From positions 1 to 24,224 of IMG/VR virus record IMGVR_UViG_3300011188_000015: a DNA stretch of 24,224 bases. The stretch is one strand, 5' to 3'. The translations under genes and the position numbers were made by a program. How positions within the stretch are numbered: the stretch's first letter is position 1; each line of letters opens with the position of its first letter. Positions 1 to 17,099 of this stretch are shown in pieces. This DNA is from a virus. The notes under the pieces were generated by a model. It ran no database searches. It saw only the letters and a program-made list of their open reading frames with translations, and had not been told where the DNA came from.

Positions 1-79
1 CACTAAATTCTACAACCAGCGGCATGCTGTTTTGTAGCGTGTTTACGATGGCTATATTTAAAAAAGTAGCTGCGATCAT
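1..79 (-). CDS. Next tail gene, 5' end only (runs off left edge)
   Basis: An ATG at 79-77 overlaps the TGA stop of the tape measure gene as ATGA, and the frame stays open to the window edge. The visible 26 residues begin MIAATFLNIAIVNTLQNSMP. The position directly after the tape measure is where siphoviruses usually encode a distal-tail or baseplate protein. Too little is visible to recognise a family, so the function is inferred from position only. Translational coupling through the ATGA overlap is the main reason to call it a gene. Confidence 0.6.
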   Translation of the reverse strand, partial: MIAATFLNIAIVNTLQNSMPLVVEFS

Positions 80-2391
80 CGTGTACGGTTATTTCTAGAT
101 TCGGTTCGCGTTATTACTTGCACTAAGGTGTCACCACGCAATATAAATTCACCGCCTACGGTCACGTTTGTAAAGCCGCCAGATGCTGGCTCTATAAGTT
201 TTTTCAATTTATTAAGAGGTGCGATAACCTCTGGGTTTGTGCGCGCACCGGCATACTCACCCACGAGCGCATTTGTAGGACCGTACACAATACCACCCTT
301 TGCAAACGGTGTTGCACCGCCGCCAGCTATATTGCCCATCGCGCTTTTTGCAAATGTACCTAAGGCCACCAGTGCAATACCAGCAGCAATAGCCACGACA
401 GGATTTAAAGATTCTAAGGCTACTTTAATTCCTTTTACAGCTAAACCTATACCTATAGCCGTTTTACCTACATTAATTGCCATGTCTGCAAGCGTGCCTA
501 CAAACAACTGCGCAAAACCTTTTATAAAATTACCACCTGTTGCGGCGGATGCTAACAACTCACCAAAACCACTTGCAAAACTACCTGCTGCCTGTTCCAT
601 TATTGGGCCTATTGCTGCATTAAATAACTGCGTAGTTTCTATCATGTTATACATACTATCCGTTAATATAACAGCTGACGCGTTTGCGCTTAATGCGGTT
701 GCAGCCAGCGGTGCAGCAACCTGTGAAAAGATTGTTTCTAAGCCTGTAATTTTAGGTAGTTTGGTTAGTTTTTTATTAGCTTCTATAACAGCTTTAGTCT
801 GTTCCTTAATAGATGCTGTAGCGGTATCATTCTTAGGAATAAAATCCTCGTTAGTACGTATAATAGAAACAAGCGCATCACGTTGTGATATAAGATTTGC
901 ACTAGACGCTGCAACTACTTTATCATAACTCACCAGCCTTTGCTGCACTTGCTGGGTAACACTTATACCATCTTTTTGCCTTGTGTTATACTCATCCTGC
1001 GCAGCAAGCAGACCATTTTGAATATTTGACCGCGACTTTGCAGCACTCAACTCAGCATCTATTAACTTGCGTTCTATCTCTACCAGCTTTGCCTGAGCAG
1101 CTTTAACTTTTGCAGTACGTATAAGCGACTCGTTATACTTGTCTACAGCTACGCGTGCAGCGTCTGTGTTAATAGTTTCTAAAGTAAGATTACCCAGATA
1201 TTTAGGAGCTATTTCATTAAGCTGTTTGATGGCTTTAACACGTTGCTCCTTACTTACTTTCTCATCACGAGCTACTATTAATAGCTCGTTAAGTTTTGCA
1301 CGCTCAGCAGCAATGCTTTTTGTAGCCTCGTTATTAATTGCTACTAGGGTAGATTGCGCTTTTACAACGTCGTCTGTAGATTTTCTAAAAGCGAGAAACG
1401 CAGCCACGAGCAGCCCCACAGCTATGGCAATAGCCCCGAAAGGGTTTGCAGCCATGAGCACAGTCATAGCGGCAAATCGTACAGATAGCGCAGTAAAGGC
1501 AGCCATGAGCCCTGGTATAACGGTGGTGGCCAGCAAGCCTATTGCAACTAGAACGGGACCTATTGCAGCGGCCAGTGCGGCTACTACTACAATGGTTTTT
1601 TTAGTGCTGGCGTCCATACCCTGAAAGCCTGCCACCAGTTCTTTTAGATAGTCGATTATAGGGATGAGGGCCTTGGTTATAATTTCGCCAAATTCCTCAG
1701 TTAGGTCGCCGATGCTATTCGATAGCTGTTTAAAAGGTCCGGTACCCGCAGCGGCAGCGGCAGCGGCAGCACCGCCGTATTGTTTTTCTAACTCGTCTAA
1801 AATGAGCGTTTGTGCCTCGGCAAGATTTCCGGTACTTGCTAGGCTATTTATAACTGCTTTCTGATCCTCGCTAAATTGTATACCTGATTTTGCAAGTGCG
1901 CTCAATCCTTTAACTGGGTCGTTTAATGCTTTACCCAGTTGTATAGATGCACTTTTTAGATCACCATCTAACCTAGTTGCAAGGTCTAACGCCGCCTGTT
2001 GTGTGCGGTCAAACTGCGTGCCGGCTATGTTTGTAAAGGTGAGCAGCTGCGCGGTAACATCTTGCAAGATTTGCTCATCACCAAAAAGCGAACTGTTTTG
2101 TAAACCACTCGCAAGGTCTTTTAATTGGGTTAAGGTTTTACCAGCTGTATTACCTGTAGATTTAAGACCAGCCTCTACCTGTGCAACGGCTTTTGCCTGT
2201 TTGTCAAAGGCTATAACGCTGGCCGCACCAAGCGCAACAATAGGCGCGGTAAGCCCGACACTAAGCTGTGATCCTATTTTGGTAAATTGCTTGCCCACGC
2301 TTTTCATGGTGCGCTCGGCATTTTGCATTTGCGATGAGAACTGCGCCAAATCGGCAAGAAACTTAATATTAATGCTTGCTAAATTTGCCAT
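76..2391 (-). CDS. Phage tail tape measure protein
   Basis: A 771-residue protein, by far the longest in the tail block, directly downstream of the tail assembly chaperone pair, which is the classic tape-measure position. The N-terminal 60 residues (MANLASINIKFLADLAQFSS...) match the usual start of these proteins: amphipathic helix, Lys/Gln-rich coiled coil, then the hydrophobic LTAPIVALGAASV. Hydrophobic helices at about 267-335 and again at about 655-700 are typical of tape measures, which are ejected into the host envelope. An eight-alanine run at 208-215 comes from a hexanucleotide repeat. The protein sets tail length and passes into the cell with the DNA. At 771 aa it predicts a moderate-length tail. 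The start ATG lies next to the stop of the frameshifted chaperone. Confidence 0.93.
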   Translation of the reverse strand: MANLASINIKFLADLAQFSSQMQNAERTMKSVGKQFTKIGSQLSVGLTAPIVALGAASVIAFDKQAKAVAQVEAGLKSTGNTAGKTLTQLKDLASGLQNSSLFGDEQILQDVTAQLLTFTNIAGTQFDRTQQAALDLATRLDGDLKSASIQLGKALNDPVKGLSALAKSGIQFSEDQKAVINSLASTGNLAEAQTLILDELEKQYGGAAAAAAAAGTGPFKQLSNSIGDLTEEFGEIITKALIPIIDYLKELVAGFQGMDASTKKTIVVVAALAAAIGPVLVAIGLLATTVIPGLMAAFTALSVRFAAMTVLMAANPFGAIAIAVGLLVAAFLAFRKSTDDVVKAQSTLVAINNEATKSIAAERAKLNELLIVARDEKVSKEQRVKAIKQLNEIAPKYLGNLTLETINTDAARVAVDKYNESLIRTAKVKAAQAKLVEIERKLIDAELSAAKSRSNIQNGLLAAQDEYNTRQKDGISVTQQVQQRLVSYDKVVAASSANLISQRDALVSIIRTNEDFIPKNDTATASIKEQTKAVIEANKKLTKLPKITGLETIFSQVAAPLAATALSANASAVILTDSMYNMIETTQLFNAAIGPIMEQAAGSFASGFGELLASAATGGNFIKGFAQLFVGTLADMAINVGKTAIGIGLAVKGIKVALESLNPVVAIAAGIALVALGTFAKSAMGNIAGGGATPFAKGGIVYGPTNALVGEYAGARTNPEVIAPLNKLKKLIEPASGGFTNVTVGGEFILRGDTLVQVITRTESRNNRTR
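1748..1771. repeat. GCAGCG hexanucleotide microsatellite in tape measure gene
   Basis: Four tandem 6-bp units (three GCAGCG, one GCAGCA) encode a run of alanines in the tape measure protein. Whole-unit slippage would add or remove two alanines without breaking the frame, so tail length could drift slightly. No functional claim is made. Confidence 0.6.
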
Positions 2392-2772
2392 TTATTGTTC
2401 TTTTTTACTGTCTATTTTTTCCCATACGCGGGCTGCGTGTTCTTTCTTTTGGTCTGGTGTGAGGCTGCTTTTACTCACTGCCTGTTTGTCCCAGGGAAAA
2501 GGCCATGAATCTTGTACTGTTTTCTGGTCTTTTTTTGCTAGATGTGGCAGCAAGGCAGACCACACGGTGTAGCGGTTTTGTTCCATTTTAAACTGGTATT
2601 GTTCGCTTTCGCGAAAGCGAACACCTTGTAAATAATTATAAAATTGCCGTGGTGTGTACTCGTACAACCGGTGCAATGGCAACAGTATCTCGCCGCTTAA
2701 CTGTTCTAACCTATCCCAGGTTAAGGGTTCTTGTTCCGTTTTTTGCGCGGTGCTTTCACCGGTTGCGGATTC
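2392..2772 (-). CDS. Tail assembly chaperone, T-like domain reached by -1 frameshift (GT-type fusion)
   Basis: This frame has no convincing start of its own; its only early initiator is a TTG at 2682. It is open without a stop from 2392 back to the slippery run at 2772-2781 in the upstream chaperone gene, and it lies exactly in that gene's -1 frame (3116 minus 2682 leaves 2 modulo 3). A slip on A_AAA_AAG therefore joins 115 residues of the G-like protein to 126 residues here, giving a fusion of about 241 residues. Lambda G/GT and many siphoviruses make tail chaperones this way: the G-like part coats the tape measure and the T-like part recruits tail tube protein. The C-terminus is charged and lysine-rich (ending KIDSKKEQ). 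The palindrome CTTTCGCGAAAG lies inside and encodes FRES. Confidence 0.85.
   Translation of the reverse strand, partial: ESATGESTAQKTEQEPLTWDRLEQLSGEILLPLHRLYEYTPRQFYNYLQGVRFRESEQYQFKMEQNRYTVWSALLPHLAKKDQKTVQDSWPFPWDKQAVSKSSLTPDQKKEHAARVWEKIDSKKEQ
2600..2623. repeat. 24-bp perfect palindrome containing CTTTCGCGAAAG
   Basis: Perfect inverted repeat centred between 2611 and 2612, with core GCTTTCGCGAAAGC. It lies inside the T-like reading frame, where it reads FRES. The same core recurs at 18685-18696, 20191-20202 and, with one end mismatch, at 23776-23786. Confidence 0.85.
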
Positions 2773-3116
2773 TTTTTTTTTGCGGTTTCCTGCGGCATGC
2801 TGGCTGCAAATTCCTGCACGATACTACCAGCAAGTTCCATGTTTGCAAAAAGCGCGTCAGCCACGTCATTGCTGTCAAATTCTACCTTATTACCTGCGGC
2901 AACGATGCTTGCAAAAACAAGGTCAGAAAGTGTGTCTATGATCGTGCCACTTAAAGAGCCGTTTCCTAAATCACCTATAGCACCAAGTTTTACAAAAACC
3001 TCCTGTAGGTTGTCCATTTTCCACAAGCTGCTTAATGCTCGTAGCGATGCATAGCCAAATCTAAGCGGGTAATCCACGCCATTTATCTCGATTGTAATTG
3101 TGCTGGTTCCTTGCAT
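2721..3116 (-). CDS. Tail assembly chaperone, G-like
   Basis: A 131-residue protein encoded between tail tube protein and tape measure. It starts with a beta-rich segment (TITIEINGVDYPLRFGYASL), followed by helices, as in TAC proteins of HK97- and TP901-like phages, where they bind the tape measure during tail assembly and are absent from the virion. The last 25 residues are very Lys/Pro/Arg-rich and lie beyond the frameshift site, so the unshifted product carries a basic tail that the fusion lacks. Its ATG overlaps the last base of the tail tube gene stop. The family is recognised by position, fold pattern and frameshift rather than a strong motif. Confidence 0.8.
   Translation of the reverse strand: MQGTSTITIEINGVDYPLRFGYASLRALSSLWKMDNLQEVFVKLGAIGDLGNGSLSGTIIDTLSDLVFASIVAAGNKVEFDSNDVADALFANMELAGSIVQEFAASMPQETAKKKNPQPVKAPRKKRNKNP
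2748..2778 (-). promoter_or_regulatory. Programmed -1 ribosomal frameshift signal
   Basis: On the minus strand the heptamer A_AAA_AAG occupies 2778-2772, correctly phased (zero-frame codons AAA and AAG) inside a run of nine A. This is the same heptamer as E. coli dnaX, the most slippery known in bacteria. Ten bases downstream a small GC-rich hairpin, CGGTG / CACCG with loop AAAG, occupies 2761-2748 and could act as a stimulator. The -1 frame then stays open for 126 codons. Everything is visible in sequence; use in vivo is inferred from the conserved tail-chaperone frameshift. Confidence 0.87.
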
Positions 3117-3529
3117 TATGCTAATGTAAATTTCTCGATAATACCAGAACCACGTAAGCTAATAGACGCTGTAGCATCTTCCTCATTAGGCGCATTCATT
3201 TCTAGAGATTCAACAAAACACTTGCCTTTGTAGCCCGTTGTGCCTACAGTATCTAGTACAAACTCAATGTCTAGTGCCACGTCTGCATCGTACTTATCGA
3301 ACAAGTCAGAAAATGCCAGTGCGGTGGTTACACCAGCAGGTAATGCCTGGACCGCTAGTGCGCTACAAGAAGCTGAAAAGCTCTTAACGCCAGGCGCTAC
3401 TTCTATACCGTCCGTGTCCTTAGTGCTGCGCTCTTTAAACTCGCGTGATAAGCTAATAGATGCCTCAGTGCTGTGAAAGACGGTCTTGCCGTCTAGTAAT
3501 ATTCTTAATAATGAACCGTCGTAAATCAT
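3116..3529 (-). CDS. Major tail tube protein
   Basis: A 137-residue, beta-rich protein immediately upstream of the tail chaperones, the standard place for the tail tube subunit. Features consistent with the TP901-1/HK97 tail tube family are an N-terminal strand with KTVFHSTEASISLSRE, a loop with KERSTKDTDGIEVAPG (the usual segment that contacts the next ring), and a final strand pair with ATASISLRGSGIIEKFTLA. The protein stacks in hexameric rings to form the tail tube and is polymerised around the tape measure. The size is normal for the family. It is the last gene before the tail-specific block and nearly abuts the completion protein (1 bp gap). Confidence 0.82.
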   Translation of the reverse strand: MIYDGSLLRILLDGKTVFHSTEASISLSREFKERSTKDTDGIEVAPGVKSFSASCSALAVQALPAGVTTALAFSDLFDKYDADVALDIEFVLDTVGTTGYKGKCFVESLEMNAPNEEDATASISLRGSGIIEKFTLA

Positions 3530-9581: not shown

Positions 9582-9833
9582 TTAAGAAGTAGATTCTTGG
9601 TTTAATCTGAATTGGTCAGGTACTGGGTCTTTTCTAGGGTGATCTGTGGTTATGAACTTCATACCTTCTAGCGTTGTGCGTGCGTTGTCTATGATGCTTT
9701 TTGCAATGGAGTTGATTGCTTTGGAACGTATCATTTCTTTCTCTAGATCGGTGTCTGTAATTGCCTCATCGCTTAGGCGTTCTAGTTGTGCGAAAAGATG
9801 ATTGTTTAAATCGGTTAGCTTATTGTTTGCCAT
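9582..9833 (-). CDS. Small helical phage protein, often found beside HNH genes
   Basis: An 83-residue, mostly helical acidic protein (MANNKLTDLNNHLFAQLERL, then DTDLEKEMIRSKAINSIAKSIIDNARTTLEGMKF). Short proteins with the core NDLNNHLFxQLERL...R(A/S)KAIxxIAxxIIxNA are common in phage and prophage regions, but their role is unknown. The start overlaps the HNH gene by 14 bp, so the two are translationally linked. The C-terminal 25 residues look disordered. Confidence 0.7.
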   Translation of the reverse strand: MANNKLTDLNNHLFAQLERLSDEAITDTDLEKEMIRSKAINSIAKSIIDNARTTLEGMKFITTDHPRKDPVPDQFRLNQESTS

Positions 9834-10455
9834 CTTGTAGGTTTTTAAGTTTGTTGTTAATTTGGGTTATTAGTACCAGAGATTTAATAGTCTCTGGTGG
9901 GTGTTTCATGTGTGAGTTCCGGTGCATGTTTTCTAACATAGAAATGCACTCTAAATTTAAAAGGTCCAAGTTGTTAGTGTTGCCGTCTTTAAATTTAATT
10001 ACATGTTTGTCCGGAATATCCCCATGCGCTTGCTGCCAGATGTAACGGTGGTACAGATCCCACACACCTATCGATGTGCGTATGTACAAGTATTCTGCAC
10101 CTGTTTTGTCTTTACGCAATCTTACTACCCCATTAGCAGGTGCTGTGTTGTGTGGCTTGTGCCCTTTTTTAAACCGGGTGTTTGCTGTTTTTTTAATACT
10201 TTTTGCGCTCATCCATTGTGCCTGCGGTATGCCTTTATTGTGCGACTGCATCCCTTTTTGAAATGTGGTGCTGCGCTTGCGCTGGTCCCGTATTTCTTGT
10301 GAGATGACAAGACCATTTTTAAGCAGGTAGTTATTTACCGCCCCATAGCTACTACCTATGTGTGAGGCTATGCGTTTAATGGGTAGACTTAAATAGTTTG
10401 CGTCTATGTATGCGGTGTCTTGTGCTGTGTATGGGGTGTGTTTTCCTTTGGGCAT
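9820..10455 (-). CDS. HNH endonuclease with N-terminal helix-turn-helix
   Basis: A 211-residue basic protein. Residues ~8-55 form a Myb/HTH-like segment (AQDTAYIDANYLSLPIKRIA, then GSSYGAVNNYLLKNGL), as seen in stand-alone phage HNH proteins. The C-terminal half carries an HNH_3-type core: LYHRYIWQQAHG, then HVIKFKDGNTNNLDLLNLECIS with the N...N and final N/H ligands. Such enzymes cut or nick DNA; many are mobile (homing) endonucleases, others regulate packaging. No intron or intein is visible nearby, so it would be a free-standing version. It overlaps the 83-residue gene at its 3' end. Confidence 0.85.
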   Translation of the reverse strand: MPKGKHTPYTAQDTAYIDANYLSLPIKRIASHIGSSYGAVNNYLLKNGLVISQEIRDQRKRSTTFQKGMQSHNKGIPQAQWMSAKSIKKTANTRFKKGHKPHNTAPANGVVRLRKDKTGAEYLYIRTSIGVWDLYHRYIWQQAHGDIPDKHVIKFKDGNTNNLDLLNLECISMLENMHRNSHMKHPPETIKSLVLITQINNKLKNLQDGKQ

Positions 10456-13249: not shown

Positions 13250-13512
13250 TGTCTTGAATCTTTGCGCATTTCTAATTTTTCTAATGCTTTGATATCTCCA
13301 GATTTTGCCATGTTAAAAAGTTTTAAATCAATCACATAATCTGACATGTCAATTCCTTTTTGTATTAATAAGGATATTTCGCTTTTACTAGATTTAAGCT
13401 GCTTTTTTACTGCTTCTAAATCTAGGTTTGTCACATTTGAAATTTTAACAGCATCATATCTAAAAACACCGCAATTTATAAGTATGTCCTTTTGTTCGTT
13501 ATTTATTATCAT
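13246..13512 (-). CDS. Small HTH-like protein between terminase subunits
   Basis: 88 residues, AT-rich. The segment FRYDAVKISNVTNLDLEAVKKQL could form an HTH. The C-terminal LFNMAKSGDIKALEKLEMR recalls the tail of many small terminase subunits, where 'GDikALkyLe' is frequent. It may therefore be an accessory or second small-terminase-like protein. The gene overlaps the PLD-like gene by 4 bp and TerL by 4 bp. The function is inferred from context; an alternative is a partner of the PLD-like protein. Confidence 0.65.
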   Translation of the reverse strand: MIINNEQKDILINCGVFRYDAVKISNVTNLDLEAVKKQLKSSKSEISLLIQKGIDMSDYVIDLKLFNMAKSGDIKALEKLEMRKDSRQ

Positions 13513-14084
13513 AGCTGCGTAAATTCTGTTATCCAGTTTTTATGAAAATTATACATTTGCTTATTTTCTTCTAAAAGATATTGTTCGACTCTTGCATTAT
13601 CACTTAGATTACCAGAGCCTTCAAATACTATATGCTTTTCACATTTAGTTTTACAAGCAAATATTTTTGCATGATTTAGTCCAAAGCAAATATTTACATT
13701 TTCATTTATTTTTGAAAAATTAATAAGGGATTCACACCATTTTTCGTAACGCTTATTTTCTCTAAAAAATGAGGATAATAGAATTGTCATTTTTATATTT
13801 CCTGCTGTCACATATTCCTTTAATTTTTCCACGCTCTTTTGATTCATTCTATATATGGCTATGTACATTTCTTCTACCTCATATTTGCTCGTTATATATT
13901 TAATGACTGTTATTGCATTAAAGTGGTTATTTGTTACAAACCTATATTGCGTGCCCTCCTTTAACTCCGAATCTATAATGTCATTTATGCTATTTGCTTT
14001 TTTGCATATTATTTTATCGTATTTAACTCTCGTTTCATATTGCTTAATTGTTTCTTCTTTTTCATTTAGATTATACCAAGCCAT
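13509..14084 (-). CDS. PLD-like (HKD-motif) protein inserted between terminase subunits
   Basis: 191 residues with low GC. Near the C-terminus is a single HKD-type signature: NHAKIF at 137-142 (His138, Lys140), followed after ~15 residues by EGSGNLSDNARVEQY at 155-169 (Gly156, Ser157, Asn159, Glu168). PLD-family nucleases and lipases use two such motifs, often by dimerisation of single-motif chains (as in Nuc). The N-terminal half has a Rossmann-like pattern (YRFVTNNHFNAITVIKYI; EEMYIAIYRMN; IKMTILLSSFF). The likely role is a nuclease, or a DNA-binding protein without activity. It lies where the phage normally keeps only terminase genes, with a 4-bp overlap to the following small gene. Confidence 0.75.
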   Translation of the reverse strand: MAWYNLNEKEETIKQYETRVKYDKIICKKANSINDIIDSELKEGTQYRFVTNNHFNAITVIKYITSKYEVEEMYIAIYRMNQKSVEKLKEYVTAGNIKMTILLSSFFRENKRYEKWCESLINFSKINENVNICFGLNHAKIFACKTKCEKHIVFEGSGNLSDNARVEQYLLEENKQMYNFHKNWITEFTQL

Positions 14085-14086
14085 AA

Positions 14087-14563
14087 TTAAGAACTAGCGG
14101 TTAATTTATTCATCACGTCACCGAAAAGATCTAACTGGTTAGACGGTTCTAGATTTAGTTCTTTTTCAGACTTAGGGTCTAGACCAAATTGCTTGAGGCA
14201 TTGCAGCATTGTTTTGGTTGCATCCCTTTTAAGCGTTAATTCCACGCTTATGTTTTTTGCACCTGTAGAGAAACTTTGTATATAGCCAGTACCTTGCTTT
14301 TTTTTGTTAGCAGTATTAATCGCTTTTACCGAAAATTCAAACTGCGACTTTGCATCTACCAGAATCTCTAGACCGGTAAGATGTATCTTTTTGAGCACGT
14401 CTGCATCTATTAATATTTGTGCTATCAATCGCCAGTGTCTTTTTGAAACCGTGTCCAAATAAGCTGGTGCAGCGGGCACCTTTTTTAATAGCTGGTTTTT
14501 AGGCAGCGACTTTACATTGTTTTTTATAGTTTTCATAGTTACGTGTTTAAGGTCCCCCCTCAT
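14087..14563 (-). CDS. Terminase small subunit, P27 family
   Basis: 158 residues; an ATG at 14536 (giving MKTIKNNVKSLPKN) is an alternative start. The P27 pattern is visible: AYLDTVSKRHWRLIAQILIDADVL, helix LTGLEILVDAKSQFEF, then GYIQSFSTGAKNISVELTLKRDA and the characteristic end LKQFGLDPKSEKEL. It recognises phage DNA and loads the large subunit. In most relatives the large subunit follows directly, but here 838 bp with two AT-rich genes intervene. It lies 21 bp after the HNH gene. Confidence 0.85.
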   Translation of the reverse strand: MRGDLKHVTMKTIKNNVKSLPKNQLLKKVPAAPAYLDTVSKRHWRLIAQILIDADVLKKIHLTGLEILVDAKSQFEFSVKAINTANKKKQGTGYIQSFSTGAKNISVELTLKRDATKTMLQCLKQFGLDPKSEKELNLEPSNQLDLFGDVMNKLTASS

Positions 14564-14584: not shown

Positions 14585-14929
14585 CTACCTATCAAGCGAT
14601 GTACGCCGAGACGCACCAATAATAATTATACCCCTACCCCTTTGTTTTGCGCTTTCTTTTGCGCTTTTTTTATCGTGACACGATTTACACATGGCTTGTA
14701 AGTTATTTTCCTCCAGCTTTGCGCCACCATTTGTAATAGAAACAATGTGGTCTACTACGTTTGCCGGTGTTATCACGTCATCACTATCACAGGCCACGCA
14801 CATAGGATTTTTATCTAGATATCTTTTGCGAGCATTGCGCCATGTTCTACTGTTGTAGAACTTAGAGTTATCTACGCTGCGTGCGTGTTTAACTTGCGGC
14901 TTATGCCATGGTCTGTTTACCTTGCTCAT
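14585..14929 (-). CDS. HNH endonuclease of the packaging cluster
   Basis: 114 basic residues. A compact HNH domain is visible: MCVACDSD (first CxxC), NVVDHIVSITNGGAKLEENNLQAMC with the catalytic His-Asn spacing, and CKSCHDKKS (second zinc CxxC/H). The upstream FYNSRTWRNARKRYLDKNP is the usual lead-in of phage HNH proteins beside terminase, which in HK97-type phages help the large terminase cut at cos. That role here is inferred from gene order. The basic C-terminus probably binds DNA. It lies 2 bp downstream of the helicase stop. Confidence 0.92.
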   Translation of the reverse strand: MSKVNRPWHKPQVKHARSVDNSKFYNSRTWRNARKRYLDKNPMCVACDSDDVITPANVVDHIVSITNGGAKLEENNLQAMCKSCHDKKSAKESAKQRGRGIIIIGASRRTSLDR

Positions 14930-14931
14930 TG

Positions 14932-16368
14932 CTATATATCTCTATTAAAATCAAACGCTTGTGATGGGTCTGCAACCTTATCTAATCTAATAGCATCCTG
15001 GCTGTAGTTCTCTATATACTCGTGATCGTAGAATTTTGTCTTGTCGCCTTTCCAGAAGATAGGTACAGTGCCGGTGCCACCTTGTCGGAACTTAGAAAAT
15101 ATCAGTTCACTGTTCGCATTCTCAGCAGCGATGTCAGGCTCTGGTTCTAGACCATAATAATCTGGCCTGTACAAAAAGCAAACGATATCACTATCTTGTT
15201 CTATTGCACCAGATTCCCTAAGGTCAGAGAGCAGTGGACGCTTGGCACCGCCTCGTGTCTCTACTGCTCTAGATAGCTGACACGGTACAATCACAGGTAT
15301 CTTTAATTCTTTTGATAAGGCTTTAATCTTACGCGTTATGCTCGCTATCTCTTGCTCACGATTGCCGCGTGAGTCTACCGACTTATCACTAACAAGCTGC
15401 AGGTAGTCTACAAACAAAATACCTAGACCGTTCTCACGTTTCCATTTACGGGCTATGTTTATAATGTTGCTTATGTCTTGCGATGGTGAATCATTAAAGT
15501 GGCATTTATATTTAACCATTCTATCACGCACAACATATAGCTCTTGAAAGTACTCTTGCTTTTCAAACCCTTTGGTTAAGAGCTGTGATAAATGAAAATG
15601 GCTATCTATAGCTACAGCACGCGAGACAAGCTCAGTCGTAGGCATTTCTATAGATATAAATCCCGTAGTTACACCAGCCTTTGCAGCAGCTACCATGTTA
15701 CCTACCAGTAAAGATGTTTTACCCATACCAGGGCGCGCGCCTATCGTTATGTACGTACCAGGCTGCCAGCCGCTTGTAAACTTATCTACTCGTTTAAGTC
15801 CAGAGGTAACGCCAGTTATCTCATCGCTTTCTTTATTGCTTAACATTTCCACGCGTTTCTGCACAAAGTCCAATGCCTCTGGCATTGTCATTTGGTGCGT
15901 GCCAGAATCTAGTAGGTTGGTTATAGAATCTAGACCAGCTGTCTGTTTGCTTATTAAATCAAATATATCTACCTCGTCATCATACGCGTCGTGAATCATA
16001 AGTGTTGCGAGTCTTATAGCTTCACGACATACATATTTTTCTAGTAAAATTCTACAGTGAAACTCAACATTTGCAGAGCTTGACACTGAGTTAGAAATAT
16101 TTATTAAGAATTGCAAACCACCTATTTGCTCTATCGTGCCATCTTCTTTTAATTGCTGTACAACCGTCATTAAATCTACAGGAGTCAGATTTACATATAG
16201 CGATTTAATAGCCTTAAAAACGAGTGCATGCTTGCGGTCGTAAAAAACTACATCGCTTTTAATTACATTTACCACAGTGTCCACGCAGTCACCATCTACA
16301 AGCATTGCGCTTATAACAGCCGTTTCTAGTTCTTGACTATGTGGTGGTATTCTTAACAGATCAGTCAT
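14932..16368 (-). CDS. dnaB: Replicative DNA helicase, DnaB-like
   Basis: 478 residues, full-length DnaB architecture: an N-terminal helical domain (about 1-105, starting with the typical PHSQELETAVISAML), linker, and RecA-like domain from about 180. Motifs are Walker A GARPGMGKT (210-218), catalytic Glu241 in ISIEMP, Walker B LFVDYLQL (318-325), QLSRAVE (364-370), LSDLRESGAIEQDSD (380-394) and the arginine finger in SKFRQGGTG (425-433). It unwinds DNA at the phage fork. It overlaps the initiator gene by 4 bp; the initiator most likely loads it. The phage supplies its own helicase rather than a loader for the host one. Confidence 0.97.
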   Translation of the reverse strand: MTDLLRIPPHSQELETAVISAMLVDGDCVDTVVNVIKSDVVFYDRKHALVFKAIKSLYVNLTPVDLMTVVQQLKEDGTIEQIGGLQFLINISNSVSSSANVEFHCRILLEKYVCREAIRLATLMIHDAYDDEVDIFDLISKQTAGLDSITNLLDSGTHQMTMPEALDFVQKRVEMLSNKESDEITGVTSGLKRVDKFTSGWQPGTYITIGARPGMGKTSLLVGNMVAAAKAGVTTGFISIEMPTTELVSRAVAIDSHFHLSQLLTKGFEKQEYFQELYVVRDRMVKYKCHFNDSPSQDISNIINIARKWKRENGLGILFVDYLQLVSDKSVDSRGNREQEIASITRKIKALSKELKIPVIVPCQLSRAVETRGGAKRPLLSDLRESGAIEQDSDIVCFLYRPDYYGLEPEPDIAAENANSELIFSKFRQGGTGTVPIFWKGDKTKFYDHEYIENYSQDAIRLDKVADPSQAFDFNRDI

Positions 16369-17099
16369 AGCATTAATTTTCTAGTCGCAGGTGCGTTTGC
16401 AGCCGCTTCGTTAGGATCTATCTTCCAGTTGTTAATTAAAGCCATGAGCCTGCCATATAGCACCCGTGCATCGTACTTTAATTCCTCTTTTAAAACAGCC
16501 GCATTAAAATGGTTTATCACTTTAGGCCAGTGTTGCTTAACATGCTTTGGAGCTTTCATTTGTGCACTTTCGTAAAGAGATGGTGCATGAGCAGCCATCC
16601 AGTCACTAGCAAAATCGATTACAGCTGTTTCTGATACATTTGTATTTTCATTTGTTATTATAATATGTTCCTTATATGAACTGCCCGTTTGGGAACATCG
16701 ATGTTCCCGATTGGGAACATCGATGTTCCCATTTGGTAAAATGCATTTGCCCTTTTCGGAATCTATACAAATAGCTAATTCTTCCGGTGCACTTTTATCT
16801 GTTAACGCATACCATTTAGTTCTGTCCCAGCCGCTTGCGTTGTGGTTAGCATCTAGCAATAGACCAGCGTCTAGAAGCCTATTTATGGCGGTTCTTATTT
16901 GTTTTGTGGTAAGCCACTTAAACTGCTCAGCATACGCGGCTGCGCTGTTATATGTCCAGTATCTGTCCTCGTAAAAATGCTTTTGATTCGTGGCATTTTT
17001 GTACACCCAATATTGAATATTAGATAAAATAATTGCGCAGTTTACATCTAGTTCCTGGGCTATATTAATATCAAAATTCATCTTAACAACGTTGCTCAT
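16365..17099 (-). CDS. Phage replication initiator (lambda O-like), carrying the origin
   Basis: 244 residues. The N-terminal domain shows the winged-helix layout of Bacteroidetes phage replication proteins: FDINIAQELDVNCAIILSNI, RYWTYNSAAAYAEQF, TTKQIRTAINRLLDAGLLL and YALTD. The middle (about residues 119-140) is encoded by tandem DNA palindromes and reads PNGNIDVPNREHRCSQTG, a disordered linker. The C-terminal domain (about 160-235) is helical, the likely helicase-contacting part. As in lambda O, initiator binding sites probably lie inside its own gene, followed directly by the helicase gene. It overlaps the helicase and the preceding gene by 4 bp each. Confidence 0.85.
   Translation of the reverse strand: MSNVVKMNFDINIAQELDVNCAIILSNIQYWVYKNATNQKHFYEDRYWTYNSAAAYAEQFKWLTTKQIRTAINRLLDAGLLLDANHNASGWDRTKWYALTDKSAPEELAICIDSEKGKCILPNGNIDVPNREHRCSQTGSSYKEHIIITNENTNVSETAVIDFASDWMAAHAPSLYESAQMKAPKHVKQHWPKVINHFNAAVLKEELKYDARVLYGRLMALINNWKIDPNEAAANAPATRKLML
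16621..16735. other. Candidate replication origin: tandem palindromic iterons plus AT-rich stretch
   Basis: Two identical 18-bp palindromes, GGGAACATCGATGTTCCC, occupy 16691-16708 and 16713-16730 (22-bp period). The flanks extend the repeat to partial third copies (CCCGTTT on one side, ATTTGG on the other). Immediately beside them, 16621-16680 is strongly AT-rich with tracts such as TTGTTATTATAATATG. Iterons plus an adjacent unwinding element inside an initiator gene is the lambda-origin layout. The repeats are directly visible; origin function is inferred. Confidence 0.8.

Follow-up and report, generated by a model that had tools for sequence, protein, structure and literature searches.

The locus studied here raises the question of how a phage reading frame is expressed when the best conserved part of its protein lies upstream of its first possible start codon. 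The frame, referred to as T, stands between the gene of a short protein, G, and a tape measure gene in a viral record of IMG/VR, which was analysed as a single strand sequence over its whole length of 24,224 bases (hereafter the window). Tailed phages use -1, -2 or +1 shifts in their tail chaperone gene pair (PMC5009743), and the -1 frameshift in the tail assembly chaperone G/GT of phage lambda is attributed in that source to Levin 1993 and to Xu, Hendrix and Duda 2004. A first-pass annotation of the window had claimed a programmed -1 frame change at an A run joining the two tail-chaperone frames, and its coordinates, phase and -1 relation of G and T all hold on recomputation. Our analyses identify the locus as a siphophage tail assembly chaperone pair of the lambda G/GT kind, a genuine but ordinary case with an A9 slip site, in which the frame change at the run is supported by position, phase and conservation in relatives.

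On the minus strand, ORF calls together with PHROG and Pfam matches give the order major tail protein, G, T and tape measure protein (Table 1), with two overlapping frames between the major tail protein and tape measure genes. On its own, the G protein of the window has a weak match to phrog_183, 'tail chaperone protein' (E 0.0044), and neither G nor T has a significant match in Pfam; relatives of G match PF12363 (Phage_TAC_12) at 1.2e-7, as well as phrog_4888 and phrog_183. An AlphaFold model of G built from 25 homologues (pLDDT 77) finds as its best viral fold match in BFVD a 'Tail assembly chaperone protein' (E 2.4e-4, probability 1.0), and the solved structures, searched by sequence and by fold, returned nothing significant and sensible. 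By its predicted fold and via its relatives, G is assigned to the tail assembly chaperone family. The family to which T belongs, phrog_16333, is listed with unknown function.

Table 1. Features of the G/T locus and its neighbouring tail genes in the window.
Feature	Positions	Strand	Basis
Major tail (tube) protein, directly upstream of G	3116..3529	-	phrog_1407 3.9e-18; PF06199 1.6e-11
G gene, tail assembly chaperone, short product of 131 aa	2721..3116	-	ORF from ATG 3116 to TAA 2721; predicted fold and relatives
A9G slip run	2772..2781	-	exactly nine A's (2781-2773), then G 2772; in-frame reading GCA AAA AAA AAG
5-bp hairpin, 4-nt loop, 10-nt spacer after the slip site	2748..2761	-	sequence (stem 2761-2757/2752-2748); doubtful stimulator
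T part, 126 aa, read after a -1 shift	2392..2772	-	open -1 frame; phrog_16333 E 1.3e-9
Conserved LTWDRLEQLSGEI... start of T, 16 codons	2674..2721	-	alignment; nearly all upstream of TTG 2682
Tape measure protein, directly downstream of T	76..2391	-	phrog_27166 6.7e-67; PF06791 6.6e-8

Elsewhere on the same strand, two HNH endonuclease genes were found at 14585-14929 and 9820-10455 (phrog_589, phrog_1891), the first of which adjoins the gene of the terminase small subunit, and an endonuclease-like gene (13509-14084; phrog_16945 at 9.8e-6, plus phrog_20533) lies between the terminase small (14087-14563) and large subunit genes. The replication initiation gene (16365-17099) contains a tandem repeat at 16684-16736 with 2.4 copies of a 22-bp unit, CCCGTTTGGGAACATCGATGTT, which is possibly a replication origin iteron.

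The T frame lies in -1 relative to G and is open from 2823 to its stop at 2392. Since T is open only from 2823 and G ends at 2721, the frame change must fall within 2823-2721. Joining the frames at the run gives a GT protein of 241 residues, and this size and the 131 residues of G, both of them as predicted in the first pass, are confirmed from the sequence. The run offers two heptamers of the form X_XXY_YYZ in phase, A_AAA_AAA (2781-2775) and A_AAA_AAG (2778-2772). Taken by itself the run is not significant, as A8G occurs 3 times in the window for 1.9 expected and terL carries a second in-frame A9 (GCA AAA AAA AAC, 12911-12903, minus strand); an argument from the improbability of the run was consequently rejected. 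What exceeds chance is where the run lies, how it is phased and that it is conserved across relatives.

The first ATG, GTG or TTG in the T frame is the TTG at 2682, from which a mechanical ORF caller yields an ORF of 96 aa (2682-2392), and the sister lineage has a TTG at the same place. It would be conceivable on these grounds that T is a separate gene started there, or reached by re-initiation after the G stop, its overlap with the A run being accidental. Such a gene would nevertheless lose LTWDRLEQLSGEI, the part best conserved with distant relatives; many of these relatives have their first T start at other, non-homologous positions, and the conserved phase and run would be left unexplained. 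Indeed, LTWDxLEE, the motif near the start of T that relatives conserve most strongly, precedes the first possible T start codon, and T must therefore be entered from G and not from a start of its own. The downstream frame is thus a -1 frame entered from upstream, with no start codon before its conserved part; the warning that a start-codon-driven gene call here would be spurious is borne out by the motif upstream of TTG 2682, and we regard a separate T gene as very improbable. A group of relatives represented by L012 narrows the place of entry, as the last A of their T-frame TGA is at the same time the first base of the run; T is thus readable only from the slip site, and the shift is pinned to the run. 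A stop codon between the run and 2682, which would have spoken against entry from G, was found in no close relative.

To place the junction in a wider context, T homologues were gathered by scanning IMG/VR with T, with the N-terminus of the tape measure protein and with T of a divergent lineage, and 128 related loci had a readable G/T junction; scans of genome contigs found no relatives in bacterial genomes, and a literature search on tail chaperone frameshifts in Flavobacterium phages found nothing. A first set of 89 T homologues, most of them adjoining tape measure genes, formed 34 clusters, 31 of which remained after leaving out one truncated representative, L103 (no overlapping G) and L091 (no heptamer). 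Among these 31 representatives with readable junctions T lies in -1 in 28 and in +1 in 3; L168 was rejected as a +1 case, being an ORF-picking artefact that is -1 on inspection. Relatives use GGGAAAG/C, A6-A7G or A8-A10, the lambda heptamer GGGAAAG thus occurring at the homologous junction. In the 13 -1 clusters without a run of A8 or longer (GGGAAAG/C in 8, A6-A7G in 5), the heptamer stands in exact X_XXY_YYZ phase in 13/13, for a chance expectation of about one in three per cluster, and this exact phase is the signature that tandem tRNA slippage on the ribosome leaves.

These relatives also bear on the reading of the frame break as a sequencing or assembly error, or as a decayed gene, at a homopolymer. 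A9 homopolymers are prone to errors, and the one isolated phage found with a homologous T, Cellulophaga phage phi39:1 (A8, T in +1), could represent a one-base undercount of an A9 that would restore -1. The two-frame arrangement is, however, repeated in the window's clade of 12 contigs, as well as in dozens of relatives found in unrelated metagenomes, and relatives of the GGGAAAG type show the same two frames with no homopolymer; an artefact or a decayed gene seems extremely improbable.

The window's clade comprises 12 contigs (the window, L001-L005, L094-L097, L148 and L216), in which the identity of G falls to about 42%. GCA AAA AAA AAG at the junction is intact in all 12, a conservation for which the first-pass annotation had suggested looking in related phages. 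The A9 of terL serves as a control: in L068, L070 and L074 it is broken by a silent AAA to AAG change that leaves the protein unchanged, and these are the same three contigs as L005, L096 and L216, in all of which the G/T A9 is intact. As the terL run is silently broken while the junction run is intact, the latter is conserved at the nucleotide level.

RNA structure provides less. The GC-rich mini-hairpin noted in the first pass exists in the sequence; its place as a conserved stimulator was rejected, as the sister lineage L094-L097 lacks it and its fold does not surpass that of shuffled sequence. A search for it in L094/L097, where A9 is kept, found no hairpin (z about +0.6). In the window, the 101 nt around the run gave a fold z of +0.47 against dinucleotide shuffles and the 65 nt downstream of it -1.34 against shuffles, and these values give no support to a stimulatory stem-loop of the dnaX type after the slip site. 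Structure follows the slip site in representatives of the short-heptamer clusters (mean z -2.11, 13/13 negative), whereas there is little of it in -1 lineages with A8 or longer runs (mean z -0.72; Mann-Whitney p 0.011, for lineages that are not fully independent). A long A run seems to replace the downstream structure.

A different frame relation was found in a marine lineage (L153, L156, L171-L214), whose T is in +1 (= -2) and whose run is A9 in 33/33 loci (L153, L156, L171-L176, L179, L180, L182-L185, L189, L191, L193-L197 and L203-L214). Two run phases occur, GGA/ACA/TCA AAA AAA AAG and GAA AAA AAA AGG/AGC, with the G stop adjoining the run, and in a nested marine group (L177, L178 and others) the run is A8 and T is in -1. 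The +1/-2 position of T at A9 cannot be explained by -1 ribosomal slippage, and the marine +1/A9 clade is a candidate case of a tail chaperone made through -2, +1 or transcriptional slippage. On a tree of T, at least four changes of the frame label are required on starred branches, a count that is only indicative, as the tree is a quick one of few columns and the misassigned L168 is included. In the literature searched, no account was found of a single homologous family whose frame switches on an A8-A9 run. Within the coding sequence of T, the marine clade also has an 11-bp hairpin about 40 nt past the slip run (L171-L214, e.g. L171:3042-3069), in which 4 pairs show compensatory changes, 98.1% of cells are paired and the covariation score is 0.337 vs 0.166 shuffled; it is common to the +1/A9 and -1/A8 groups and lies further downstream than a frameshift stimulator usually would.

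How, then, would the window phage produce its two proteins? Most translation of G would stop at 2721, giving the 131-aa chaperone, and a minority of ribosomes would re-pair one base back at the A9G run, either on A_AAA_AAG or, three bases earlier, on A_AAA_AAA, and would read the -1 frame to 2392 to give the 241-aa GT protein. If lambda is a guide, G would coat the tape measure protein, with the T part recruiting the tail tube protein; the product ratio and these roles are what we infer. Slippage of the ribosome specifically on A_AAA_AAG, as originally claimed, agrees with the phase of that heptamer, but A_AAA_AAA is equally well phased and a share of the polymerase is possible. As almost every phase of a long run holds an in-phase heptamer, ribosome and polymerase are inseparable by sequence for A9.

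In transcriptional slippage, the host RNA polymerase would add or drop A's on the T9 template, and an A10 (or A7) mRNA would give GT by ordinary translation. Nine-A runs slip with high efficiency in bacterial transcription, as used in Thermus dnaX (PMC5009743; PMC3711429), the run length for polymerase slippage being An with n>7 (PMC3711429). The A9 of the window, which is a run of nine A/T, is enough for the polymerase and longer than a -1 heptamer requires, although its extra A's also make a second in-phase heptamer, so that transcriptional slippage is not needed to account for its length. In 22/23 four-fold cases the codon that precedes AAA AAA AAG has A as its last base, vs 20% expected, among related sequences that are not independent. 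The marine clade with its constant A9, T in +1 and two run phases, the sister lineage with A9 and without the hairpin, and the weaker structure in A8+ lineages, as expected if some depend on the run alone, all point the same way. Conversely, transcriptional slippage does not explain GGGAAAG/C or A6-A7G in exact ribosomal phase in 13/13 clusters, which indicates that the family can use the ribosome, and A9 is also tolerated inside terL of the same genome. We therefore consider polymerase slippage unlikely for the window phage, in which the ribosome is probably the main slipping route.

A broader proposal is that the long A runs of this chaperone family act as slip sites free of direction, with RNA polymerase responsible for at least part of the slipping, and that the window A9 is such a site. 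This we advance tentatively, as a rather doubtful generalization. If true, a slight alteration of the run or of the bases beside it could move T from -1 to +1/-2 while the GT product stays, and the tail assembly chaperone of the window phage would be expressed by transcriptional slippage. The homologous junction offers a natural series (GGGAAAG, A7G, A8 and A9, in -1 and +1 frames) that could test when phages use the ribosome and when RNA polymerase for the same protein ratio. Furthermore, the results supply the missing GT gene for a phage group whose T family has no assigned function, and in which automatic gene calls split or mis-start GT.

Comparison with known systems places the locus among several precedents. 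Cellulophaga phage phi39:1 has in gp19/gp20 the same gene order as the window and a homologous T with 32% identity, but its deposited run is A8 (L007:3945-3960) with T in +1, and the two genes are annotated as hypothetical proteins with no frameshift noted. The A8 is possibly a homopolymer miscount, one more A giving the common -1 arrangement; it was held back as proof of a differing frame relation, and the +1 relation rests on the 33 metagenomic A9 loci. The -2 tail frameshift of phage Mu (PMC5009743) is resembled by the marine clade, which likewise reaches the +1 frame in the tail chaperone pair, with A9 and by a candidate mechanism, whereas T of the window lies in -1. The A9 run has the same length as that of Thermus thermophilus dnaX (PMC5009743, PMC3711429), but T in the window's clade is in a fixed -1 frame, and relatives with short in-phase heptamers argue for the ribosome. 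With E. coli dnaX the window shares the A_AAA_AAG heptamer in the same phase and a stem downstream; it differs in its 10-nt spacer, its short unconserved stem and the lack of a demonstrated upstream Shine-Dalgarno-like stimulator. Compared with lambda G/GT, the slip site is A9G in place of GGGAAAG and G and T of the window are without significant Pfam matches, but the gene order, the overlapping frames, the -1 shift near the end of G and the long product with a T domain are alike.
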